From positions 1 through 64,000 of the forward strand of contig JAGQZT010000005.1 in assembly GCA_020435335.1 (NCBI GenBank): DNA of 64,000 nucleotides, read 5' to 3'. The notes under the pieces were generated by a model. The model made no database searches and was not told where the DNA came from. It was given only the letters and a program-made list of their open reading frames with translations. The DNA is from Flavobacteriales bacterium (GTDB taxonomy: Bacteria > Bacteroidota > Bacteroidia > Flavobacteriales_E > Vicingaceae). Position numbers and translations under genes: made by a program. This document shows positions 20,781-56,701 of this stretch, in pieces (position 1 is the first letter of the stretch; each line of letters begins with the position of its first letter).

Positions 20781-21335
20781 TTGATTAAAGATAAAATAAT
20801 ATTAGGAATAGACCCCGGAACTACCGTAATGGGTTATGGCGTTATCCAGATCAAAAATAATAAGATGCAGCTTTTAACCATGGGTGCCATCGAATTGCAC
20901 AAGATCGAATCCCATTTTTTGCGCCTTCAGAAAATATTTGAACGTACTCAATACCTGATTAATGAGTATCAACCCGATGAATTTGCCATTGAAGCCCCAT
21001 TTATGGGTAAAAATGCCCAATCTATGTTAAAACTCGGCAGGGCACAGGGAATCTCCATGGCTGCAGCATTGGAAAAGAACATTCCTGTGAGTGAGTATGC
21101 CCCGAAAAAGATCAAACAATCCATTACAGGAAGAGGAATGGCTTCCAAGGAGCAGGTTGCGGGTATGCTTGCCAGCCTGTTAAAGCTAAAAGCCCTTCCG
21201 AAACATTTGGATGCTACCGACGGACTGGCGGTGGCTGTTTGTCACTATTTTCAACTGGGAAAGCCTCAATCCGAGAAAACCTATTCAGGCTGGAAGAGTT
21301 ACATTAAAGAAAATCCGGGTAAAACAAAGGGTTAA
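20781..21335 (+). CDS. ruvC: Holliday junction resolvase RuvC
   Basis: A 184-residue crossover-junction endonuclease. The four catalytic acids are at D11 (GIDPGTT), E71 (FAIEAPF) and D144/D147 (HLDATDGLAVA), and the region from GRGMASKEQV to the C-terminus matches the family. The enzyme dimer cuts Holliday junctions in homologous recombination, working with RuvAB, which are not in this window. The start is TTG. The stop codon shares bases with the convergent HIT gene's stop (both read from TTAA at 21332-21335), and no terminator separates them. Confidence 0.96.
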   Translation: MIKDKIILGIDPGTTVMGYGVIQIKNNKMQLLTMGAIELHKIESHFLRLQKIFERTQYLINEYQPDEFAIEAPFMGKNAQSMLKLGRAQGISMAAALEKNIPVSEYAPKKIKQSITGRGMASKEQVAGMLASLLKLKALPKHLDATDGLAVAVCHYFQLGKPQSEKTYSGWKSYIKENPGKTKG

Positions 21336-21721
21336 GCCTCTAGAATGGCCTGTTGAATGGTCTTAAATTCTTCTTCAGCCAATTGCAACTTAGGCCTTGA
21401 AAAATTGATATCCTGCACGTTGTTAATCGGAACCAGGTGAATGTGGGTATGAGGAACCTCCAGACCAATCACAGCTATCCCTATCCGTTCACAGGGAACC
21501 GCTTTTTCGACTTTAGCAGCAACTTTTTGGGCAAATTCCCACAACCCGTTATAAGTAGGTGCATCCAGGTTGAAGATGTAATCCACTTCCTTTTTAGGTA
21601 CAACCAGCGTGTGGCCCTTAGCCAATGGAAATACATCCAGAAAAGCAATGAAATCATCATTTTCTTCCAGAATATACGCCGGAAGTTCTTTGTTGATGAT
21701 TTTGGTAAAGATGGAAGCCAT
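21332..21721 (-). CDS. HIT family protein
   Basis: A 129-residue histidine-triad nucleotide-binding protein, with the HTHIHLVPI motif near residue 91 (His-x-His-x-His). The ADP-binding core includes DFIAFLDVFPLAKGHTLVVPKK. HIT proteins of the HinT/Fhit branch hydrolyse AMP-linked substrates; the natural one is unknown. It follows greA with a one-base TAATG overlap, and it is convergent with ruvC. The pair greA-HIT is a familiar neighbourhood in Bacteroidota, and both parts fit well in length. Confidence 0.94.
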   Translation of the reverse strand: MASIFTKIINKELPAYILEENDDFIAFLDVFPLAKGHTLVVPKKEVDYIFNLDAPTYNGLWEFAQKVAAKVEKAVPCERIGIAVIGLEVPHTHIHLVPINNVQDINFSRPKLQLAEEEFKTIQQAILEA

Positions 21722-22194
21722 TATCTGGAGATCTCGATGATTTCAAATTTCATGATGCCTGAAGGAACTTTAACTTCAGCAACATCACCTACAGACTTAC
21801 CCAGTAAACCTTCTCCGATGGGTGAATCAACAGAAATTTTCTTTTGTTTTAAATCCGCCTCTTTTTCGGATACCAACGTATATTCCATGATGGCGCCATT
21901 GGCCGTGTTTTTAATCTTTACCTTGGAAAGAATTAATGCTTTAGATGTATCCAGTTGGGATTCGTCGATCACCCGGGCATTGGACAATACCTCTTCGAGT
22001 TTGGAAATTTTCAGCTCGAGTAAGCCTTGTGCTTCTTTGGCTGCGTCATATTCCGCATTCTCCGAAAGATCGCCTTTATCTCTGGCTTCTGCGATCTGAG
22101 CAGATATCTTAGGGCGTTCAACATGTTTTAACTGCTCTAACTCTTCGTTAAGTTTACGCAGTCCTTCTTCAGTATAATAATTTACGTGAGACAT
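21721..22194 (-). CDS. greA: Transcription elongation factor GreA
   Basis: A 157-residue GreA. It has the N-terminal antiparallel coiled coil (YYTEEGLRKLNEELEQLKHV... through RDKGDLSENAEYDAAKE, carrying the acidic tip D/E residues that reach the RNA-polymerase secondary channel) and the C-terminal FKBP-like domain (GLLGKSVGDVAEVKVPSG). It rescues backtracked polymerase by stimulating transcript cleavage. Expression is probably from its own promoter, since a strong terminator at 22217-22244 separates it from the barrel gene behind. It is coupled to the HIT gene. Confidence 0.97.
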   Translation of the reverse strand: MSHVNYYTEEGLRKLNEELEQLKHVERPKISAQIAEARDKGDLSENAEYDAAKEAQGLLELKISKLEEVLSNARVIDESQLDTSKALILSKVKIKNTANGAIMEYTLVSEKEADLKQKKISVDSPIGEGLLGKSVGDVAEVKVPSGIMKFEIIEISR

Positions 22195-22216: not shown

Positions 22217-22244
22217 AAAGAGAACTCAAAAATGAGTTCTCTTT
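22217..22244 (-). terminator. Terminator of the TonB/T9SS/PorV operon
   Basis: A perfect 12-bp stem (AAAGAGAACTCA / TGAGTTCTCTTT, 4-base loop) lies 27 bases past the PorV-like stop. On the minus strand it is followed by a T-run, so it ends the long operon before greA. Confidence 0.75.
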
Positions 22245-22270: not shown

Positions 22271-23356
22271 TTATAGGTCGAGTTTCACTCCTATACTATG
22301 AGTTCCTGAAAAGTTTTCAGTCATTTGGTAAGCATAGTGGAATCCGAAAGTGGTTCCGTTCTTACCTAGCGGCGCAACAAAAGAAGCTCCGAATGCTGGT
22401 CCGGAATAAGCATTTGCACGCTTATCACCATCGAACCAAACTCCTTGCTCCATCACATAACCACCTCTGATCATGAACATGCTTCTAAAAGCATACTCCA
22501 GACCAATTCTGTATTGGTCATTGGTAAATGAGTTGGAAGTATAAGTTCCGGCTAATGTAATTCTATGATCAGAATTGATTTCACTGCTCGTAGAATCCGC
22601 TGTTGGAGCCAGATAAAAGTCATAGGATGCACCAATATTCAACAAAGATGGCAGCTGATAAATTGCCGATCTGTGTTCCTGAGTTGAAGAAATATCAAAT
22701 CCTGCATTATCGTTTGTTTCTGTAAAAGACAGACCATCTCCCGAATATTGCATGGTAGGACCGATGTTTTTTAAGGCGATACCAAATTTCACCTGATCGT
22801 TGTCTCCGGTAACATATCGGATACCTGCATCAAAGGCAACACCTCTGGCAGAAGCATTGGCAATGGATTCACTGATAATCCGGGCACCGATACCACCGTA
22901 AATACTGTTAGAGAACGTTTTCGCATATCCCACATCAATTGTTGTGTATGATGGAGAGAAAGTCCCAATTCCACCTTCCGGAAGATCAACTTTAGTGATG
23001 TCGACCTGACCGAAATCCATTGACATCACAGACATACCGATTACACCGGTTTCTCCGACTTTTTGGGCAAATCCAAATGTATTGACGTTCACGTCGGATC
23101 CTACCAAATAGCGTTTGTGGTTAACCAGAAGTTCTGTTTTTCTGGTAAATGCCATACCTGCTATATTTAAGCCCATCGCTTCCAATCCGCTTACAGAGGA
23201 ACTATTTGCTCCGGCAAATCCAACGCTTTGTGTCCATGGATTAATCAGCAACTGAGAAGCACCAGCTTCACCCGCTCGATCCGGATTTCCTGCAAACGAA
23301 CTAGCTGTAATTCCACAAGCTAATAGTGTCAGTATTGATAATTTAAATTGCTTCAT
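22271..23356 (-). CDS. PorV/PorQ-family outer-membrane barrel
   Basis: A 361-residue exported beta-barrel of the PorV/PorQ (DUF3308) family: signal peptide to about residue 22, then the family N-terminus GEAGASQLLINPWTQSVGFAGAN with LNIAGMAF, strands with alternating hydrophobic residues throughout, and a C-terminal strand ending in IGVKLDL. PorV (LptO) is the T9SS shuttle protein that binds cargo C-terminal domains and brings them from the translocon to the attachment complex. This copy is the third gene of an operon with a T9SS-exported protein and a TonB receptor, so it is probably a paralogue dedicated to them rather than the main PorV. Confidence 0.85.
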   Translation of the reverse strand: MKQFKLSILTLLACGITASSFAGNPDRAGEAGASQLLINPWTQSVGFAGANSSSVSGLEAMGLNIAGMAFTRKTELLVNHKRYLVGSDVNVNTFGFAQKVGETGVIGMSVMSMDFGQVDITKVDLPEGGIGTFSPSYTTIDVGYAKTFSNSIYGGIGARIISESIANASARGVAFDAGIRYVTGDNDQVKFGIALKNIGPTMQYSGDGLSFTETNDNAGFDISSTQEHRSAIYQLPSLLNIGASYDFYLAPTADSTSSEINSDHRITLAGTYTSNSFTNDQYRIGLEYAFRSMFMIRGGYVMEQGVWFDGDKRANAYSGPAFGASFVAPLGKNGTTFGFHYAYQMTENFSGTHSIGVKLDL

Positions 23357-23391
23357 ATCTTATAATCGTTATATTCTCTTACAGTTAATTA

Positions 23392-26300
23392 TTAGAATCC
23401 GTTCAAATCGGTCGGTTTCATGATTCCGTACCACTTTAATGTACGCTCACCAATATCCGGAACCTGTACATGGATCAGGTATAATCCACTGGCCACTGGT
23501 ACATTGATGTGGTTTTTCAAATCCCAATCCAGGCTGGTAGAAGGATCTCCTTTCTTAAACCTTCTCATTAAGGTACCACTCACGTTGTAGATCGAAATCG
23601 TACATACTTCAGGTAAGTTAGTAATCTTAATGCGGTTATCCAACTGATCCGTTTCATATTCAGAGTATGCATAATACGGATTAGGAACCACGTTGATCAT
23701 CGCCAGTACGGAATCCATCGCAGCAGTAACACCCGTATCCACTTCCAATCCGCTCATATCAAATTCATACATCGGAAGTTGGTTGTTAACCGTAGATGCT
23801 GTTGCAAACCTTCTGAATGGGCGCTCTACTCTCAGTTTCACTTTCGCATCGGTTTCGAATAACGTATGACCTTCTTCCAGCATTGGGATACCGGCCCATA
23901 CACAAGTCGTCCAGGCTTTCGTTTTATCCAATACCGATGAATTCATTTTCGTGGCTAAGGCCGCACAACCGTCATAAGCTGGCATAACTGCTGTTCCGTT
24001 ATAGTAGTTACCTTTTTTGAACACATACACATAATGCTTACCTCCCATCATCAATTGACTGTTAAATCCGGCAAAGGCGACGGAAGTCGGATTCCACTTC
24101 ATATCTCTACCATTTTCACCCGCTAACCAGCTGTCTTCAGCAAAAGCGACATTCAATCGTTCACCGGTCTCCACGTTAATTGCATACCCTGGGAACCATC
24201 CCATACCATTCCCTGTTCCATCCGGGTTTCCATTTTTATCAACACTCGGAGATTTTCTTGGGTTCAAATGCGCGGCACCGCCTTCGGCAAGTACAACATC
24301 ATTTCTGGCTTCGAAAACGATACATCTACTCCATTTACTCTTATCAGACGTAAACACGATGTCAACCGAAGGAACAGAATCCAGGTAACTGTTTCTAACC
24401 GCCAATCCTGAAAGTCCATCGTAACCGATCGCATCTTGCATATCCGGCTCACTGGTCAAACTACTGGTTTGCAAGTAAGATACTAAACCGTAAGGAGCCC
24501 AGGTTCCGCTGATTAAGCCTTCAAAGTCAGATTCAGGGTCTATGTAATTCGGAGCATTGTTATCGTTGAAGGCACTTGGAGACGAATCATCATAGTCAGA
24601 ATCTCCCGATCTGATCCAGTTCGCATCAGTCTGGCCTTCCTGATCGGAGAATCCGCCCAACCAACGTTTTGTTGAATCGGCATATTCGATTTCCGCTCCG
24701 ATGAAACCATTACCAAGTTCTTTCTCTACTCCAGGCTTAGCCTTTTGTTTTACAGTAATAGATAAACCATCATCAAGGAATAATTGCTCATTTTCAATCG
24801 CAATGACCTGATCGGAACTGATAATTTCACCTCTAGGTGTGTGTAATAACCAGTAAGCGTCATCCATTTTACCTCCTGTAGTGTCCTGGAATTGAACACG
24901 GTATACACCGGCTTTCACATTCAGCGGGTCAACCACTTTCACGTCAATAGGACCATGACCTGATTTATAAACCGGGTAATCGGCAAAATTGTTGGCAACA
25001 ATTGCAGCTTCACTTTCTGCCGTTAATTCCAGGAAGTTACCATTGTTTCCTTCCCCTTCGATACGTTTAATCATCGGTTGATCTCCGTATTCAGCATTGG
25101 CTACTGTACCTCCATTCTCAGGAGCAGGGTTGTGAGGAATAGCCGAGAACGATCTCAATCCTTGTCCACCTGCTAACTTTCTGGATGCAATATAAGGTTG
25201 TGTTTGACCATCCAATGCCATCGGATCAAGCGGGTCATAATGTTTGTATTCATTATAACCGTAAGCGATAGCCATGTAATAGTAGGTTTTATGGTTCACC
25301 AACCTGCTGCTTCCGCTGGCAAATAAATCCTCAGTGATTCTGAATGAATGCTTGATTCCTAAATCCGCACCATTTACCATTTCCTTAGGAACGTTTGCCT
25401 GCAAATCCTGATCAAATGTATAGTTAACCAATTGAGTGATACCATCTTTCAAATCAACCTGAGCTACCAGTCTGGCCTTGTTAGGATCATCCAGTTCAGA
25501 TGCCGTAATCAAACCATTTTTCATTTGGTAGATTTGATATCCCTGGAATGTATAGAATTTCAAGGTATCCTTATCTTCATCCGATCCCTGGTAAACACCG
25601 TCTAAGGTATCAGGAATAGCAATGAATGGGTTCTTTTGATTGTATGACTCATTGTAGTTATTTGAAACTTTTCTGTTGCTCAGGTAGATGATCAACTCAT
25701 TTTCCATTTCCTGGAACGTGAGGTCCGGAGCATCCGGTCCTTCCGCAATTTTAAAGCAGTTATCGAACAAAGCCTGAGCTTTATCGTCAGCAACACGCAT
25801 CACGTTGATGGATGATAAGTTATCACCAGATACGGCTCTTGCCCATACCACACCAACTGTTAAATCGTTCACCGCTCCCGGCTCCAAAGTAAACGGACCG
25901 GCTGATTCCAAGAACCTTCTATCACCAGGTTGATTACCTGCTGAAGCCTCCGTCCAGATAGCAGGAGCTGCAGAAATCCCCTGAGTACTCCAGAACAATG
26001 GATCAGAATCTCCGGGGAATAATAAATCAGCTAAAACAGTACCTCCCGAAGAAGCAGCATTCCCGTTTCCTCCCCACACCATGTGAGCACCACCGTTTCT
26101 CCATCTTCCTCTCAGGTAGTTGTAGTAATCCAATGCGTTTTGAGGGTCACCATCTCCGAAGAACTGACCACCACCGATCGAATAGTAAACGAATTTACGC
26201 ATTCCGTAACGCTCATTATCCACGATGCTGTCACCGTACCCGATTCCCAATCCTTTGTAAGGAATACCTCCATTCGCTAACGCATAAGGAACATTGGTTG

Positions 26301-27450
26301 ATAGTGGATTATCGATACCATCATCATCTGCATAAGGACCTTCGAAGAAGTCAACCCCGATACAAGGAGGAACAGATCCATAACCTGTAACACCATTACC
26401 ACCGTTGTCTACTTCGTTACCATTGTAACAGTAACCCAATCCTCTCTGAGCATCACAACCGACATAATCATCGGTAGAACCTCCCAAATCCGAATCCACC
26501 CATTGACCGAAATAAGTTTCGTACAATGTAAATGTAGAACGGTTGATCATTTCATAATTGTAGAAAGTCATGTTGTTCACTTCGTCGTTCGTAGCGAAGG
26601 CGAAAGCTTGTCCTCTGATCTCCATACCGATAGATGGTCCCTGAGTCTCAGAGTGCGTATTCCCCTTATCGTTGAACACGAACCAAATGGTGGTATCACC
26701 GAACAATCGAACATCTCTGGTTGTTCTACAGTCGATTTCTCCCAACACATCGTATTTCGGATAATCTCCGGAATTCGGGTCATAATAATCATCACCATCT
26801 TTGTCGTAGAATGGTGCTAACTCCTGAGTTACGGTATAACTGTAACCACCATTCACCACGGTATTTCCTTTCGCAGGCCATTCTTCAATCACTTTAGGAA
26901 TGGAATATCCCGGAAACTCTACATTTTCATCACAGTTAGGATCCTGAACACAATCATACCAGGCAATAAACTTATCTACCTGAGCACGTGAAATTCCCCA
27001 GCTTCTATCGAAAGCCGCACACTCACTGGCTGTAATCTCAGCCGTAGTCGGGTTCAACGGACCAGGCCAGAAGTCATTACCGGCATTTCTAAAGGTTACT
27101 GCAGCCAGTTTCAACTGACCGTTGATGTCCTGTCCACCCATCCACAGTGCACCTGCATAGATCGAGGTATATTTCGGATCATCATTACTGGTTCTTTTAG
27201 GCACCTCATAGTCGGCAACGCTATTCGCACGATCCTGCCACATACTACCGCCGGTTCCTTCAATTCTGGTTCTGACATTATTCAGTTTCAAAACAGCAAT
27301 ATCTACGGCTGAAGCACAACCTGCAGCCGGAGTCGGATTCCCTCCCCCTTTATTGCTGTTCATATCTCTCCTCGAATATCCGCTGGTCACCATAAAGAGT
27401 GTCAGCGCTGCTAATGCAATTTTGTTGATTGAAATTTTCACGTTTTGCAT
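23392..27450 (-). CDS. Large T9SS-type surface protein
   Basis: A 1,352-residue exported protein with signal peptide (about residues 1-25). A conserved-looking N-terminal region (GSMWQDRANSVADYEVPKR, SIYAGALWMGGQDINGQLK) is rich in Gly/Asp and Ca-binding-like stretches (DKDGDDYYDPNSGDYPKYD). A long beta-rich middle follows. The C-terminal domain has VVPNPYYAYSEYE, then ISIYNVSGTLMRRF and SGLYLIHVQVP, which matches the T9SS type A sorting domain pattern. It should be surface-exposed or released. It lies 29 bases after the TonB receptor and 35 bases before the PorV-like barrel in one operon. The substrate or ligand is unknown. Confidence 0.82.
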   Translation of the reverse strand: MQNVKISINKIALAALTLFMVTSGYSRRDMNSNKGGGNPTPAAGCASAVDIAVLKLNNVRTRIEGTGGSMWQDRANSVADYEVPKRTSNDDPKYTSIYAGALWMGGQDINGQLKLAAVTFRNAGNDFWPGPLNPTTAEITASECAAFDRSWGISRAQVDKFIAWYDCVQDPNCDENVEFPGYSIPKVIEEWPAKGNTVVNGGYSYTVTQELAPFYDKDGDDYYDPNSGDYPKYDVLGEIDCRTTRDVRLFGDTTIWFVFNDKGNTHSETQGPSIGMEIRGQAFAFATNDEVNNMTFYNYEMINRSTFTLYETYFGQWVDSDLGGSTDDYVGCDAQRGLGYCYNGNEVDNGGNGVTGYGSVPPCIGVDFFEGPYADDDGIDNPLSTNVPYALANGGIPYKGLGIGYGDSIVDNERYGMRKFVYYSIGGGQFFGDGDPQNALDYYNYLRGRWRNGGAHMVWGGNGNAASSGGTVLADLLFPGDSDPLFWSTQGISAAPAIWTEASAGNQPGDRRFLESAGPFTLEPGAVNDLTVGVVWARAVSGDNLSSINVMRVADDKAQALFDNCFKIAEGPDAPDLTFQEMENELIIYLSNRKVSNNYNESYNQKNPFIAIPDTLDGVYQGSDEDKDTLKFYTFQGYQIYQMKNGLITASELDDPNKARLVAQVDLKDGITQLVNYTFDQDLQANVPKEMVNGADLGIKHSFRITEDLFASGSSRLVNHKTYYYMAIAYGYNEYKHYDPLDPMALDGQTQPYIASRKLAGGQGLRSFSAIPHNPAPENGGTVANAEYGDQPMIKRIEGEGNNGNFLELTAESEAAIVANNFADYPVYKSGHGPIDVKVVDPLNVKAGVYRVQFQDTTGGKMDDAYWLLHTPRGEIISSDQVIAIENEQLFLDDGLSITVKQKAKPGVEKELGNGFIGAEIEYADSTKRWLGGFSDQEGQTDANWIRSGDSDYDDSSPSAFNDNNAPNYIDPESDFEGLISGTWAPYGLVSYLQTSSLTSEPDMQDAIGYDGLSGLAVRNSYLDSVPSVDIVFTSDKSKWSRCIVFEARNDVVLAEGGAAHLNPRKSPSVDKNGNPDGTGNGMGWFPGYAINVETGERLNVAFAEDSWLAGENGRDMKWNPTSVAFAGFNSQLMMGGKHYVYVFKKGNYYNGTAVMPAYDGCAALATKMNSSVLDKTKAWTTCVWAGIPMLEEGHTLFETDAKVKLRVERPFRRFATASTVNNQLPMYEFDMSGLEVDTGVTAAMDSVLAMINVVPNPYYAYSEYETDQLDNRIKITNLPEVCTISIYNVSGTLMRRFKKGDPSTSLDWDLKNHINVPVASGLYLIHVQVPDIGERTLKWYGIMKPTDLNGF

Positions 27451-27479
27451 ATGATTTTGTCTTTAATTCCTAGTTCTAA

Positions 27480-30400
27480 TTAAAAGTTTAATTGTATACC
27501 TAATCTGATTCTTCTAGGTAATGCGTAATTGAATCCATTTTGCAGTTTCGCCTCGTAGAGGTTTCTGAAAGAAGTTTCATCAATTTGGTTTACAATATAT
27601 TGTTGTTGGTAAGATGCAGCAAGGAACCCATCGTCATCCGGGTTACCAGTAGAGGCATACACACCAATGATATTTTTAGAATTTAACAGATTCAGTGTCT
27701 GAATGTAGATGTTCAATGTTGCTTCTTTTCTGTCTTCTCCTTCTCCTTTACCCCATTTCAGATCAATGGTTCTATCGATCTTCGCATCAAATGTGGTGTT
27801 AAACGGAAGTCTGGAAGCATTCAACTGACCTTCCTGTGGTGAAGTCCCTTGAGAAGTAAACAGAATTCCTGAACCGTTCACACGAGATCTCTTCGTGTAA
27901 GGTGTTCCTGAACCTGCTCTCATGGTTACGTTCAATCCGGTATTTTGCAAGATATCTTTTCCGAACAGTACAGGTCCATTGTAGTTCTTACCTGAACCGT
28001 AACGGTAATCCGCACGTAAGGTAATTCGGTGTCTTTGATCGAATGATAACGGAATTAATGTTCTTAAGTTACCATTACCGGAAGAAACCAGGTTTTGAGA
28101 AGTCGTTGTACTGGATCCTGTTCCATCAGCAAACTGCAAGGTATAACTCGCGTTCATGGAAATGTTTCCTCTGGTTCTCAAATCATACGTAATCGTTACC
28201 CCTTTTACTGTACCGAAATCGAGGTTATCGAAAGTGAAGTAGTTACCAGGGAAAGCACCGATGATTTGTCGGGTTTGTACCTGATCTCTGTTTTCTCTGT
28301 AGAATGCAGCGATTTTCAATGCTGAATAGTTATCTAATTTTTGTTGGAATCCTAATTCGTAATCGATTGTTTTTTGGGCTCTTAAAGCAGGGTTATTGAA
28401 ATAACCTCCGAAGATATTCGTTCCTCCGGAACCGAAAGCCAGGTAACTGATCAAATCCATTCTGTTGTTGGACTCCGGACGCTGAGTCAACACATCATAG
28501 TGAGCGAAGAACAACGCTTCATCAGAAATCGGGAAAGAGAATGCGATCCTTGGAGAGATATTCACCTGAGGCTCGTAATCTTTAAACGATTCTCCGTCTA
28601 AGTCTTCGAATACACTATCATCATTAGGGTCTACCAACCAAGGTTGAGGAACACCTGATGAACTCAGGATAGATGGATCGGTGATCAACTCACCTTCTTT
28701 GTTATACCAAACATCTCCGTCACGGTAACCAACAACATCATCAATGGTTGGGTTCGCGGCATCGGCTACATAAACAACGAAGTCGTCTCCGATGTTTTGT
28801 CCAATCGGATCAAGTCCTTCAATCTCTCCAACCGTTTTAACAGGGAAAAGAGAATACTTGTCTTTTAATACAGACTGGTTCGCATCGTAACGATCGATAC
28901 GGATACCCACGTTAAAGATCAGGTCATCGAAAGCAAATTTATCCTGGATGAAACCTGCCACATAGATCGGACGGAAAGCCGGGTTCTCTCTCAGGTAATT
29001 TCCGTTGTCATCTTGCTTGGTGAAGAAATCGTCTACACTTGGGTTTCCGGAAAGTTTAGCTCCGGTGTGATCGTATCCGAAGTTGTTTACATACCCTCCG
29101 TTGGTGATTAACTCATCCGGAGAGAACATACCGATGTTCCACACATCAGGACCATAAGAATCGAAATCGATCCACTCTCTACCGTCAACCGGTAATCCCA
29201 GAGATTCTCTCAGGTTCTTATCAAACGTACTGTGTGCAGTCGGGTCATAAGCCTGAATAAAGGTAAATCTGTCGAAACCACCGGTCCAAGGCTCTTGAGT
29301 AAATGTTCCTACGGTATAATCACGCTGTTGTAATTGAGTATTCACCAACTGACGGCCTAAGTTCCACAGTCCTACAGGAGCAGCAGAGTAGAATCTGTCA
29401 TCTCGTTGCTCGTACTCAAACCCAATTTGCAGGGCGTGATCCTTAATGGTGGCACTACCTTGAGCGGAAACTCTGAACTGTGATTGATCTTGCTTGGTAT
29501 AGCCATTGCTTACCCGGCCCATGGAAGACCACATACCGTAAACATCGGCAGGGTTATCACCGTTCACCAAACCACCAAAGGTTCTTACATTGTTAATGTC
29601 ATCCCAATGTCCTTCCGGATCATTTGCATAGACATCGTAATAACTGGATGTGTAATTCGCCAGAATCGGGTTGATGTCTCCTGCTTCGTATGAATACAGG
29701 ATGGAATTCTGATTAGACAGGAATCCGTAATCAATGGAAACGGTATCGCCGTTTGAATCCGTGATGTAGATAGAATCCACTTCATCATAAGTAGTTTCAT
29801 AAGTTGTTGTAAACTTACCTATATAACCGTAATGAGACAGCTGATCTTTGTGACGCTCGTCCTGATTCGTAAAGTTGTAGTTAGAATAATCAATCTGGAA
29901 GTTGATGAAGGCATCCTTAATTAAGGAAGGATTCTCTTCATCGCTGGAGTTGGCAAAACGCTGTGTAAATCGACCATAAACCCTCCATGTTCTATCGATA
30001 GATTGTGGATTGTTTGCTGAGTTCAGCAGCGAATAGGCTGTCCCCGAACCTCTGACATAATCATTCCCATCGCGGTAGTCAAACGACCCTCCGACAGACA
30101 CGTTAGTCGTTTTTGAGGTAGTAATGTCTATTTTACCAGCCAGGTTCAATGATTTACGAGCCACATTTAAACGGAACGGAGTTTGTTCCATATCGTTAAA
30201 AGTCAGGTAACTGGCAGAATTAATTACCCCTCCTGCTTCACTTAAGTTTTGAATGTAAGGCGTAGCATTTAACGAATCCATCACATCGTCCTTCACTTTC
30301 CAGTCCCCACCATAAAATGGTCTCGGATCAACCTCATGTTTGGCTTCACCGGACAGGAAGAACCCTGCAATAGCGTCTTTCTTATTTCCTAATGAATCTT

Positions 30401-31220
30401 TTCTTGTTTTGATCGGACCTGAAATACTACCTGCCAACAAGTTAAACCCGAATTTATCCAAACCAACCACTTTATCGCCGGTTTTAAATCCTGACGTTAA
30501 GTATTCAATTCCACCGAACCATTCTTTAGATGCACCTCTGGTTGTAATGTTAACGATACCTCCGGTTGCATCCCCGTACTGTGCAGGAATACCTCCTGTA
30601 ATTACAGATACCTGATCAATGGCCGAGTTAGGTAAGTTTTGTGTCCCCCTTACTTTGATCCCATCGATATACGTAGTGGTTCCACTTGTTCTGGCTCCTC
30701 TTACACTAAGTGCGGAACTACCATCATCCGTTGAATAAACACCACCAACAGTAGCAGCAATAGAGGCAGCCGAACGACCCGGCATCTTCTTGATCTCCTC
30801 CGCGGTAATGGTTCCTCCGGAAGACGTTTGATCTTTAGAAATTAACGGCACTTCATAATCAATAACAACAAATTCCTCCAGATTCTCAGCACCGGAAGAA
30901 GCTTTAATGTCTTTCATGAAAGTAATCTGACCTGCTGAAACGACGATGTCATTCACCTGAATCGGTTGGTATCCCACATACGTTGCCTGAACGGTATATT
31001 TTCCCGGTGTTAAGGCCGTGAACGTAAATTTACCATCAAAGTCCGTCATGGTTCCGGCCACCTGTGATCCACCTTTCATCAGTACAACGTTCGCAAATGC
31101 TAATGGTTCACCATTGTCCTTATCGAGCATCTTTCCCTTAATCGTTCCCTGGTTACCTTGTGCAAATGACGTAAGGACAAAGAACACCATAGATACTAAA
31201 ACAGCTAGTCTTTTTAACAT
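27480..31220 (-). CDS. TonB-dependent receptor with carboxypeptidase-regulatory domain
   Basis: A 1,246-residue outer-membrane receptor. It has a signal peptide (1-20), a carboxypeptidase-regulatory-like N-domain (about 24-105, GTIKGKMLDKDNGEPLAFAN), and a plug domain (about 120-230, GRSAASIAATVGGVYSTDDG; RGARTSGTTTYIDGIKVRG; GGIPAQYGDATGGIVNI). A large barrel ends with a C-terminal aromatic-type strand (RRIRLGIQLNF). TonB receptors import large ligands using proton-motive force; its loops and partner protein are not those of a SusD pair, since no SusD is beside it. It heads an operon with a T9SS protein and a PorV-like barrel. Confidence 0.92.
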   Translation of the reverse strand: MLKRLAVLVSMVFFVLTSFAQGNQGTIKGKMLDKDNGEPLAFANVVLMKGGSQVAGTMTDFDGKFTFTALTPGKYTVQATYVGYQPIQVNDIVVSAGQITFMKDIKASSGAENLEEFVVIDYEVPLISKDQTSSGGTITAEEIKKMPGRSAASIAATVGGVYSTDDGSSALSVRGARTSGTTTYIDGIKVRGTQNLPNSAIDQVSVITGGIPAQYGDATGGIVNITTRGASKEWFGGIEYLTSGFKTGDKVVGLDKFGFNLLAGSISGPIKTRKDSLGNKKDAIAGFFLSGEAKHEVDPRPFYGGDWKVKDDVMDSLNATPYIQNLSEAGGVINSASYLTFNDMEQTPFRLNVARKSLNLAGKIDITTSKTTNVSVGGSFDYRDGNDYVRGSGTAYSLLNSANNPQSIDRTWRVYGRFTQRFANSSDEENPSLIKDAFINFQIDYSNYNFTNQDERHKDQLSHYGYIGKFTTTYETTYDEVDSIYITDSNGDTVSIDYGFLSNQNSILYSYEAGDINPILANYTSSYYDVYANDPEGHWDDINNVRTFGGLVNGDNPADVYGMWSSMGRVSNGYTKQDQSQFRVSAQGSATIKDHALQIGFEYEQRDDRFYSAAPVGLWNLGRQLVNTQLQQRDYTVGTFTQEPWTGGFDRFTFIQAYDPTAHSTFDKNLRESLGLPVDGREWIDFDSYGPDVWNIGMFSPDELITNGGYVNNFGYDHTGAKLSGNPSVDDFFTKQDDNGNYLRENPAFRPIYVAGFIQDKFAFDDLIFNVGIRIDRYDANQSVLKDKYSLFPVKTVGEIEGLDPIGQNIGDDFVVYVADAANPTIDDVVGYRDGDVWYNKEGELITDPSILSSSGVPQPWLVDPNDDSVFEDLDGESFKDYEPQVNISPRIAFSFPISDEALFFAHYDVLTQRPESNNRMDLISYLAFGSGGTNIFGGYFNNPALRAQKTIDYELGFQQKLDNYSALKIAAFYRENRDQVQTRQIIGAFPGNYFTFDNLDFGTVKGVTITYDLRTRGNISMNASYTLQFADGTGSSTTTSQNLVSSGNGNLRTLIPLSFDQRHRITLRADYRYGSGKNYNGPVLFGKDILQNTGLNVTMRAGSGTPYTKRSRVNGSGILFTSQGTSPQEGQLNASRLPFNTTFDAKIDRTIDLKWGKGEGEDRKEATLNIYIQTLNLLNSKNIIGVYASTGNPDDDGFLAASYQQQYIVNQIDETSFRNLYEAKLQNGFNYALPRRIRLGIQLNF

Positions 31221-31442: not shown

Positions 31443-31817
31443 TCAAACGCCGCCCTGACCGGAAGAAGAAGGGTTGGTATCAGAACCGCCTCCCTCACCA
31501 TTCAGATCGAAGTTTTCATCTACATCGTCGTCGTCCTCATTGTCATCACCTCCAATAATCGTCGATGGATCGGACGGATCACCTGTTCCTGTACCACCAC
31601 CAACTACGCCTCCTTTGCCCGGATCCGTACCTTGCTCCCCACCACCTTGAGTTGATGGAGTGCCACCTTCCCGCGCATTGGAACCATCCCAGTTTTCAGC
31701 ACTTTGAGACAGCCCGTCACCGTAAGGTACAGGCTCATTCCCCTTCTGACATGAAGCCAAAACAAGAACAACCATCGTGGCTAAAACCAGTGTGATATTT
31801 TTACAGAATAGACTCAT
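31443..31817 (-). CDS. Low-complexity Gly/Asp-rich lipoprotein
   Basis: A 124-residue lipoprotein (lipobox LASC, cysteine at 23). The mature part is low-complexity: Gly, Ser, Asp, Glu and Pro with runs such as GGVVGGGTGTGDPSDPS and DDNEDDDDVDEN, so it is probably disordered and acidic. It lies between the TonB-receptor operon start and the lpxK gene, which is divergent, and it has the same orientation as the receptor, 222 bases upstream of it. No family or function is recognised. Confidence 0.65.
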   Translation of the reverse strand: MSLFCKNITLVLATMVVLVLASCQKGNEPVPYGDGLSQSAENWDGSNAREGGTPSTQGGGEQGTDPGKGGVVGGGTGTGDPSDPSTIIGGDDNEDDDDVDENFDLNGEGGGSDTNPSSSGQGGV

Positions 31818-53299: not shown

Positions 53300-56200
53300 A
53301 TGAAGAATGCTGTATTTGCCCTACTTTTCAGTCTATTTACATTAGGGATTTTCGCCCAGGACACGATTGAAGTCAAAACCCTTAACTTCAGCGACATTAC
53401 CAAACGGAGAGGATGGTACGTCTTTCCGAAAGACACCAACCGCTACGAGAAGATCCTGATGTACTATACACTAAAGTGTGATGCAGCAACCACTCAGGAT
53501 CAATACGCCTGCGGTGAATGGGATTATACGACTTATACCAACCTGTATCAGCATAACAACGTAGGGGCTCCACGTTACCTGGTAGACGGAAACTACCCCG
53601 ACACGATCAATTACGTAACGAATCCGACTTACACTTATTTCCAGAACCAGCAATACTTCATTGTATATGATAACACCACCTCCGAAACCGATTACAGCAT
53701 CGGAAGCGGAAGTACTGCTTTAACCAATACGTTCAATTCGGGATTAGCCAACAGCAAGGCGCAATACCTGTGGACGGCAGCCGAACTTTCCGGATCAGGG
53801 ATTTCTGCAGGAACCATCGACAAGATCAAGCTCGATTTTTCAAGCCTGGGCAGCGACCTGAATTACCTCACTGTCCGAATGAAACACACTGCCTTAAGCT
53901 CGTTGCATGATACGCTTTACGAGACCTCGGGCTTTACGGAAGTATACCACCTGAACACCCAGATTCCCAGCACAGGAATCAATACCCTGAACCTGACCAC
54001 CCCTTTTGTTTGGGACGGCACATCCAACCTGATCGTAGAATTCTCCTTCAGCAATGCCAATCCGGGAACCGGTCACACCCTTGTGGGCGAGACCACCTCA
54101 TTTAATTCAGCCGTTTATGCCACTCAGGATGATGGCAAACTGGATTTTGTTTGGGGAGACTATGTAGAAGTGCCGGCGAGTGCGTTTGCTGCCATCGACA
54201 GCTTTATCACCGTTTCGTTCTGGTGTTACGGAGATACCGGCAAGCTTCCGGAAAGCACTTACATCTTCGAAGGCCGTGATGCCAACGGGAACCGGGTGAT
54301 CAACTCGCATTTACCCTGGAGCAACAGTGAAGTGTACTGGGATGCCGGTAATTCAGGGACTGCTTCTTACGACCGCATCAACCAACCGGCCAATACGATG
54401 GATTTTGAAGGACAATGGAATCATTGGGCCTTCACCAAAGATGTAAGTACCGGAGAAATGAAAATCTACCTGAACGGTTCGCTATGGCTTAGCGGAACAG
54501 GAAAAACACGTACCATGAGCGGAATTACTTCGTTCAAAATCGCCGGACAAGCCAACAGCTACGGAAAATACGACGGTGCCATCCACGATTTCCGGATCTG
54601 GAATGTGGCACTGGACAGCAACACCATTCAGGACTGGATGTATAAAGACGTAACCGCTTCGCATCCGAACTACGCCAATCTGCAGGCCTATTACAAGTTT
54701 GACGATATGACCGGTTACACAGCTACCGATGCATCTGCCAGTAACGCAGACGCCAACTTGATGGGACTCCCTTCCTGGAACTACATCAAAGGCTGGGATC
54801 AGTACCGGAACATGACCGTTGCCATGGAGCGCCCGAACATTAGCTTCACTCAAGGAATTTACACTACACACCTCGATTCGATCATGGTTCTCGACTCCGT
54901 TATGAATGCCCCGAAAAGCATTATTCAGTATTCCACCAGCATCGACACGAACAACTCCGGTATCACCATGGCTGTGATCGACACCACCTACGGCTGGGAA
55001 TCGGGATGGGTTTATACCTACGACCAGTACGGCAACAAAGTGGATTCTACTTACATCAATTACGACAACCAATTGGTCAATCAGTATAATCAAACTACTT
55101 TCCAATTGCAAAACTACGTAACACCCTACGGTATCGGTTTGAGCCTTGGCCCCGACGGATTTCGATGGGTATACGATGTAACCGACTATGCGCCTCTATT
55201 CCACGACACGGTAGAACTCTCTGCCGGAAACCAACAGGAACTGATCGATCTGCGTTTCATCATGATTAAAGGAACGCCTCCCCGTGACGTCATTAAAATC
55301 GAATCCATCTGGCTGGGCGATTATCAGCATTCCGACATTGCGAATGATTTTGTGATGCCTGCTGTTAATGTGGATCTGGATCCGACTGCCGCTTCCTTCC
55401 GCATCAAGACCAGAACGAGCGGACACTGGTTCGGCGGATTCCAGAACTGTGCTGAATTCTGCCCGAAATACCACAACGTATTTGTAGACGGTGTAAAACG
55501 TTTTGAGTGGCTGAACTGGAAAGAGTGTGCCGACAACCCGGTGATCGCACAGGGAGGCACCTGGATCTACGACCGTGCCGGATGGTGTCCGGGTGCATTT
55601 ACCGACACCTACGATCACGAGTTAACTCCTTACGTTACACCGGGCACGACCGTATCGCTCGATTACGGCATGGAATTCACAGCCGGAGGCATGGAAGGAA
55701 ACTACCGGACCACCATGCAATTGGTTACTTACACCCCGAATAATTTCAATCTGGATGCCCGCATCGATGAGATCATTTCTCCGACCGACTGGGAATACCA
55801 CAGCAAGATCAACCCGATCTGTACCGATCCGCAGATCGTGATCCAGAACACAGGAACAACCACACTAACCTCATTAACAATCACCTACAACGTACTGGGC
55901 GGAACCCAGGAAACGTACAACTGGACCGGCAGCCTGGCCTTCATGGAAAGGGAAATGGTTACTCTCCCTATTCCGGGACCATCTTTCTGGACAACTGCTT
56001 CGCAGCAAAACATTTTCGAAGTGAGCATCAGCGCTCCGAATGGCGGTATGGATGAATATGCCTACAACAACAATGCGTCGAGTGCCTTCGAAAAACCGGA
56101 CGTGTACAGCGGCCTGTTCTCCCTGAGAATACAAACCAACAATGCCGGAACCGAGAATTCGTATACCATTAAGGATGATCAGGGTAACATTGTGATGCAA

Positions 56201-56701
56201 CGAGCCACGATGGCCAACAACACCTTGTATTACGACACCCTTAATTTACCGGATGGTTGTTATGTATTTGAACTACTCGACAGCGATGATGACGGAATGA
56301 GTTTCTTCGCCAACAACGACGGAAACGGCACCATTCGTTTCTGGCCTACCCCATTAACCTGGGTAAAGAACTTCAATGCCCAGTTCGGTAAATTCCTGCG
56401 TTACCATTTTATTATTGATAATACGGTGGGCATTGACAGCTATGATAAGATGCAGGAAATCGAAGTCTTCCCGAACCCGAGCAAGGGCAGTTTCACCATT
56501 AATGTAACCGGCTTTGATAACGAGCAGGTTACCCTGGCTATTTACAATACGCTGGGTGAAAATTTCTACAGTGAACAGGTACAATCGGTGAATGGACTAA
56601 TCAACAAACGGATCGACTTGAGTGCCATTCCAAACGGCATTTATTACGTACGGGTGTTTGCCAAAAACAACTACGCAGTACAACGTATTGTGAAGCACTA
56701 A
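53300..56701 (+). CDS. PNGase F-like secreted protein with inserted LamG domain and T9SS sorting signal
   Basis: A 1,133-residue exported protein. Signal peptide ends near residue 20. The N-terminal PNGase F half begins at 21 and has CGEWDYTTYT with D75 aligning to the catalytic Asp60 of Elizabethkingia PNGase F. About 500 residues are then inserted, including a LamG/concanavalin domain at about 277-460 (WNHWAFTKDVSTGEMKIYLNG). The N-domain resumes at residue 601 (FQLQNYVTPYG, then VYDVTDY), and the C-half carries NCAEFC with E719 (Glu206 equivalent) and WIYDRAGWCPG. The C-terminus has a type A sorting domain (EVFPNPSKGSFTI; IPNGIYYVRVFA). It probably removes N-glycans from glycoproteins outside the cell. 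The Glu118 equivalent is not evident. Confidence 0.85.
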   Translation: MKNAVFALLFSLFTLGIFAQDTIEVKTLNFSDITKRRGWYVFPKDTNRYEKILMYYTLKCDAATTQDQYACGEWDYTTYTNLYQHNNVGAPRYLVDGNYPDTINYVTNPTYTYFQNQQYFIVYDNTTSETDYSIGSGSTALTNTFNSGLANSKAQYLWTAAELSGSGISAGTIDKIKLDFSSLGSDLNYLTVRMKHTALSSLHDTLYETSGFTEVYHLNTQIPSTGINTLNLTTPFVWDGTSNLIVEFSFSNANPGTGHTLVGETTSFNSAVYATQDDGKLDFVWGDYVEVPASAFAAIDSFITVSFWCYGDTGKLPESTYIFEGRDANGNRVINSHLPWSNSEVYWDAGNSGTASYDRINQPANTMDFEGQWNHWAFTKDVSTGEMKIYLNGSLWLSGTGKTRTMSGITSFKIAGQANSYGKYDGAIHDFRIWNVALDSNTIQDWMYKDVTASHPNYANLQAYYKFDDMTGYTATDASASNADANLMGLPSWNYIKGWDQYRNMTVAMERPNISFTQGIYTTHLDSIMVLDSVMNAPKSIIQYSTSIDTNNSGITMAVIDTTYGWESGWVYTYDQYGNKVDSTYINYDNQLVNQYNQTTFQLQNYVTPYGIGLSLGPDGFRWVYDVTDYAPLFHDTVELSAGNQQELIDLRFIMIKGTPPRDVIKIESIWLGDYQHSDIANDFVMPAVNVDLDPTAASFRIKTRTSGHWFGGFQNCAEFCPKYHNVFVDGVKRFEWLNWKECADNPVIAQGGTWIYDRAGWCPGAFTDTYDHELTPYVTPGTTVSLDYGMEFTAGGMEGNYRTTMQLVTYTPNNFNLDARIDEIISPTDWEYHSKINPICTDPQIVIQNTGTTTLTSLTITYNVLGGTQETYNWTGSLAFMEREMVTLPIPGPSFWTTASQQNIFEVSISAPNGGMDEYAYNNNASSAFEKPDVYSGLFSLRIQTNNAGTENSYTIKDDQGNIVMQRATMANNTLYYDTLNLPDGCYVFELLDSDDDGMSFFANNDGNGTIRFWPTPLTWVKNFNAQFGKFLRYHFIIDNTVGIDSYDKMQEIEVFPNPSKGSFTINVTGFDNEQVTLAIYNTLGENFYSEQVQSVNGLINKRIDLSAIPNGIYYVRVFAKNNYAVQRIVKH

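Follow-up and report, generated by a model that had tools for sequence, protein, structure and literature searches.

Why should a PorV-like barrel be encoded together with a TonB-dependent receptor and a large predicted T9SS cargo? The operon that raises this question lies in a 64,000-nucleotide stretch of a Flavobacteriales genome (here, the window) and consists of three minus-strand genes. The ORF list and domain matches identify the first, T, as a TonB-dependent receptor of 1246 aa (27480..31220). The second, C, is a predicted T9SS cargo of 1352 aa with an N-terminal Sec-type signal sequence (23392..27450), and the third, P, is a PorV/PorQ-family beta-barrel of 361 aa (22271..23356) that falls outside the PorV, PorQ and PorV2 groups. 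The first-pass annotation of the window had described this layout, with gaps of 29 and 35 bases, a terminator at 22217-22244 and no SusD, and all three points are borne out. The operon ends in an intrinsic terminator on the minus strand, a 12-bp stem (22244-22217) followed by a T-run; the RNA of positions 22260-22205 on this strand folds at -16.2 kcal/mol (z = -5.6), and none of 200 shuffles is equally stable. A simple terminator scan did not pick up the stem, which is a limit of that scan. No SusD gene adjoins the operon, and PF07980 (SusD) has no match anywhere in this genome or in genomes G412 and G447. T contains a CarboxypepD_reg domain (residues 26-100) and a Plug domain (residues 130-222; Pfam PF13620/PF13715 and PF07715, respectively) and matches no SusC-specific model in NCBIfam; C matches neither a SusD model nor CHU_C in Pfam.

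P belongs to the PorV family in the broad sense, scoring 131 bits against the NCBIfam model PorV_fam (NF033709; cut-off, 90), and remains below the equivalog models for PorV, PorQ and PorV2 (55.9, 73.6 and 42.4 bits versus cut-offs of 250, 220 and 325). The genome has six PorV-family matches, four of which were assigned by family model as PorV, PorV2, PorQ and P. PorV is located immediately 3' of PorU and PorV2 immediately 3' of PorU2, whereas PorZ is encoded elsewhere. The possibility that P is the genome's sole PorV and exports all cargo, which the annotation had named as fatal to its proposal of a dedicated shuttle, is thus ruled out by the separate genes for PorV, PorV2 and PorQ. Structure models were built on 62-sequence alignments (mean pLDDT of 88 for P and 81 for a 1092-aa cargo homologue). 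The top Foldseek matches of the P model are 8gl6_F, the PorV of a substrate-bound T9SS translocon (E = 2e-13), and 6h3i_F, also PorV. PorV precedes FadL among the matches, although the PorV-family barrels and FadL have a common fold, and is closer to P than BamG. In a tree of the barrels, PorV (99), PorQ (100) and PorV2 (100) form supported groups, and the barrels from T-C-P modules come together apart from all three with moderate support (80, by a quick method). The orthologues of P from the window form one group (100) that includes several classes, and some groups of paralogues draw their members from more than one phylum, which suggests that the duplications are old. The PorU2-PorV2 arrangement of this genome lies at L255:3811-10109 (G000:C79), where PorV2 (363 aa) directly follows PorU2 (1695 aa), both named by NCBIfam; a paper search found no relevant publication on this pair.

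The genome encodes the T9SS translocon SprA (2651.7 bits) and yields 113 type A sorting domain matches, so that the operon is expected to operate alongside a functional T9SS that serves many ordinary cargos. The best conserved parts of C are its N-terminal region and its C-terminal domain (CTD), which is 37% identical between classes, compared with 16% for the middle of the protein. The CTD (residues about 1226-1352; 23395..23775, minus strand) includes a conserved Lys with a tail of 13 residues after it. A Lys at the apparently corresponding position is found in 41 of 49 module CTDs; in published structures, the PorV-facing surface of the CTD is poorly conserved except for one Lys that contacts PorV (PMC10994853). 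The 13-residue tail was considered as a hallmark of the CTD class and rejected, diverged modules ending 5 residues after the Lys. Module CTDs, with a consensus of roughly VVPNPY...F.NLP..CTIRIF...G.LV.TI...WDL......VASG.Y..HV....G....KF..I, are poorly covered by existing models. The C terminus of C reaches 20.5 bits against TIGR04183 when searched as a protein (cut-off, 23) and 23.9 bits in the genome scan, over model positions 10-61 only, and weakly matches PorZ (about 20 bits); among ten module cargos, Pfam gave weak, subthreshold CTD-type matches in two and nothing else. The TIGR04183 matches in this genome that end before model position 66 are those of PorU, PorU2, PorZ, C and two other proteins, one of them type B-like and the other, of 1015 aa, encoded next to a 345-aa gene. 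The module CTD represents a distinct CTD class.

The N-terminal region of C (residues about 45-606; 25633..27318, minus strand) has no Pfam match and loose fold matches at most. The cargo model matched PorZ and PorU in the PDB along with, loosely, GH94/GH116-type enzymes at TM-scores too low to be relied on. This region is also found in lone paralogues without an adjacent P, which carry ordinary type A CTDs (e.g., L106 and L068). This is a natural contrast, in which one N-terminal region has a different CTD depending on its genetic context. Four such paralogues (L068, L073, L076 and L106) are short, about 600 to 700 aa, and often adjoin an extra lone cargo with a module-type domain.

To what extent the three genes belong together was assessed from the cargo side. 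A scan of GTDB genomes returned at least 579 cargo-encoding stretches, the best 80 of which take in Latescibacterota, Fidelibacterota (Marinimicrobia), Ignavibacteriota, Kryptonia, Rhodothermota, Eiseniibacteriota and a MAG labelled Deferribacteres. The cargo is present in 58 of 60 relatives and in 192 of 393 genomes sampled from the phylum. Within that sample, all 192 cargo-positive genomes encode SprA, and the cargo is absent from all 81 genomes without SprA (Fisher p about 1e-28, uncorrected for phylogeny). Gene order was scored at 145 loci that encode a full-length cargo (N-terminal region plus CTD) and have the neighbors in view. At 125 of these, T lies upstream and P downstream of C on the same strand, a rate that applies to the cargo and not to T or P because the loci were picked by cargo similarity; T adjoins the cargo at 127. 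Seen from the cargo, the members of the trio therefore occur together far more often than apart; their occurring mainly apart was what the first-pass annotation had named as refuting its proposal. Already among the first 81 loci, 62 had the full trio, its genes separated by a median of 31.5 and 34 bases, and this, together with the enlarged set, excludes a chance arrangement. The order is kept in several classes of Bacteroidota and at all loci scored in Fidelibacterota (3/3), Latescibacterota (2/2) and Ignavibacteriota (4/4). The remaining 20 full-length cargos possess the module CTD without adjacent P and T, so that PorV or a distant P may serve some of them.

PorV-family genes are numerous in other FCB genomes, with up to 27 in one Latescibacterota genome. 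In three genomes with many such genes, the surroundings of 36 copies other than PorV were read with profile-based gene picking; 28 of them lie downstream of a protein with a module-type CTD that is itself preceded by a TonB receptor (at one of the 28, L327, the stretch examined ends before the receptor position). The other eight comprise two copies directly after a receptor, two that group with PorQ, two that group with PorV2 and two unplaced long branches. The two PorV-like barrels directly after a TonB receptor, at L296 and L328, have no cargo between, and they group in the tree (98). Seven full-length module receptors all have the CarboxypepD_reg domain, and six of them match Plug. The annotation had portrayed the trio as a self-contained system; the operon is organized as it described, but it is not a one-off, many diverged copies being present in other FCB genomes, at times twelve or more in a single one. 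Its proposal of one cargo per shuttle also stands in part. In this genome, the module CTD profile has a single strong match, the cargo in the window (two more pass 1e-6), but L068, L076 and L089 have extra cargo copies without a P of their own.

The annotation had further proposed to check whether the cargo and barrel phylogenies match, and the comparison was positive. Across paralogous modules, the distances between CTDs correlate with those between the P proteins (rho = 0.60; Mantel p = 0.0005). The correlation is also seen within single genomes (rho = 0.69 in G449, 0.71 in G132 and 0.66 in G030; p <= 0.0012), where species history is common to all modules, so that it reflects duplication and divergence of the unit. 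Within G449, the T and P distances correlate at rho = 0.82 (Mantel p = 0.0002 for this genome). At the level of sequence, the correlated distances of T, CTD and P show linked descent, not physical contact.

The distribution of the trio is opposite to that of SusD. Five Bacteroidia genomes lacking the trio have 10 to 38 PF07980 matches each. Among 312 SprA-positive genomes, the median number of SusD candidates, as counted with the single Pfam model PF07980 and uncorrected for phylogeny, is 14 in cargo-negative versus 0 in cargo-positive genomes; only 2 of the 312 have neither cargo nor SusD. Both are present in some genomes, for example, G158 (24 SusD candidates), G064 (13) and G162. The T-C-P unit is not a SusCD system, given that SusD, a defining part, was looked for and is absent. 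The parallels to SusC/SusD (RagA/RagB) are that a TonB receptor is encoded with a dedicated large surface partner, that many diverged copies exist per genome and that the receptor has a CarboxypepD_reg domain ahead of the plug. Conversely, the partner here is a predicted T9SS cargo, neither a SusD homologue nor a lipoprotein, and a third gene, for the PorV-like barrel, is part of the unit. T-C-P looks like a counterpart, not described so far, of the familiar SusC/SusD pair for nutrient uptake.

The reading that we consider probable is that C is a T9SS-exported surface partner of the receptor T and that its own barrel P exports it and probably also holds it. C would be made with a Sec signal and would cross the outer membrane through SprA by means of its CTD, to be received by P, which would take the place of PorV or be preferred to it. 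P would then keep the CTD bound and uncleaved. Such retention of the CTD is proposed by analogy with PorU and PorZ, whose CTDs are retained on PorV and PorQ, respectively (PMC10202324), and from the pattern of early-ending TIGR04183 matches. C would thereby stay at the surface beside T, where its N-terminal part could capture a ligand or close over the receptor, and T would import the ligand with TonB energy. By analogy, the unit may thus work like SusC/SusD, with the lipid anchor of SusD replaced by a T9SS CTD and a PorV-like barrel; we infer the export by P, the contact between C and T and the role in nutrient uptake alike.

P could instead be a permanent surface anchor and processing partner of C, as in PorU-PorV or PorZ-PorQ, in a complex that does not feed T, the receptor being co-regulated, a sensor or an assembly partner. 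This arrangement has precedents in PorU-PorV and PorU2-PorV2, which are adjacent pairs without a TonB receptor, and the CTD of C resembles that of PorZ. It is unlikely, however, in view of the receptor adjoining 127 of the 145 cargos, the recurrence of the three-gene order in paralogous modules, the strongly correlated T and P distances and the two loci where T is kept next to P without a cargo between. A different objection to a dedicated role is that P might be a transient, redundant shuttle of the PorV type, with C undergoing the usual fate of type A cargo, namely, processing by PorU and then either attachment to LPS or release. The CTD of C is indeed type A-like, close to the TIGR04183 cut-off and with the conserved Lys, and some lone cargos have no adjacent P; on the other hand, the CTD with its tail shows unusual conservation and differs from the ordinary CTDs of this genome, and the early-ending match places C with PorU, PorU2 and PorZ, which makes this possibility quite improbable. 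Finally, the fold common to PorV-family barrels and FadL leaves room for P to be a FadL-like transporter of a hydrophobic substrate, that is, a second import pore of an uptake operon rather than a cargo carrier. We regard this as very improbable because PorV, ahead of FadL, is the best structural match and because the strict pairing of P with a CTD-bearing protein would go unexplained.

The reading of P as a dedicated barrel that holds a surface partner of T can be set against several known systems. PorU-PorV, PorU2-PorV2 and PorZ-PorQ likewise combine a barrel of the same fold and family with a protein carrying an atypical CTD, known to be retained in PorU and PorZ. Unlike these, the module barrels form a separate group, the unit includes a TonB receptor and occurs in many copies, and C lacks a sortase or PorZ domain. 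Type B CTD substrates are encoded next to the PorP/SprF barrel that is their cognate shuttle, and the pair sets localization (PMC12618676, PMC9143113); the cargo gene lies beside that of its shuttle barrel in both cases, but P is of the PorV/PorQ family, the CTD of C is not type B and a TonB receptor is added. In BamG-BamH of the Bacteroidota BAM, which serves outer membrane protein assembly, a FadL-fold barrel also holds a large extracellular protein (PMC12611786, PMC12578637). An identification of the trio with BamG-BamH of BAM was ruled out: BamH is a lipoprotein (PMC12611786), and P is structurally nearer to PorV than to BamG.

A search of the open-access literature, excluding subscription papers and preprints, found no paper describing the T-C-P trio and none using terms such as PorV family, paralogues or homologues. 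A recent paper states that type A CTDs are all recognized by PorV (PMC12618676), and the question of how the various CTDs are recognized and tied to localization is raised in a 2023 review (PMC10202324). More tentatively, and on broader ground, T-C-P units may form an ancient family of TonB-dependent uptake systems, spread throughout the FCB group, whose surface partner is delivered by the T9SS and held permanently, by way of a separate CTD class, on a dedicated barrel of the PorV family. Such systems would replace SusCD in SusD-poor lineages, and dedicated cargo barrels could then be a general principle of the T9SS and not a special case of PorQ and SprF. If so, there would be dozens of natural CTD-barrel pairs, each by its own TonB receptor, making recognition specificity testable by swaps. 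T9SS export would be tied to nutrient uptake, with a hint at how the surface of SusD-poor FCB bacteria is equipped.

Other genes surround the operon. About 220 bases upstream of T is a small lipoprotein-like ORF of 124 aa, acidic and Gly/Asp-rich (31443-31817, minus strand), with a GGDDNEDDDD motif that is kept within the genus; in other families, this slot is occupied by a basic secreted protein of about 100 aa (QTK..RKRMKK..KKSKR). The trio is followed by genes for proteins of 157 aa and about 130 aa (21332-22194, minus strand; GreA-like and HIT-like by sequence), as it is at most Bacteroidia loci, an order that is long-lived with no obvious functional link. Elsewhere, the downstream genes vary by lineage (a GWxTD protein, a lipid A acyltransferase, TPR/cytochrome or an oxidoreductase) and the pair of 157 and about 130 aa is mainly found in Bacteroidia, so that the neighbors are uninformative on function. 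The same window also encodes an ordinary T9SS cargo of 1133 aa (53300-56701, plus strand), whose type A sorting domain is clear (44.7 bits against TIGR04183).
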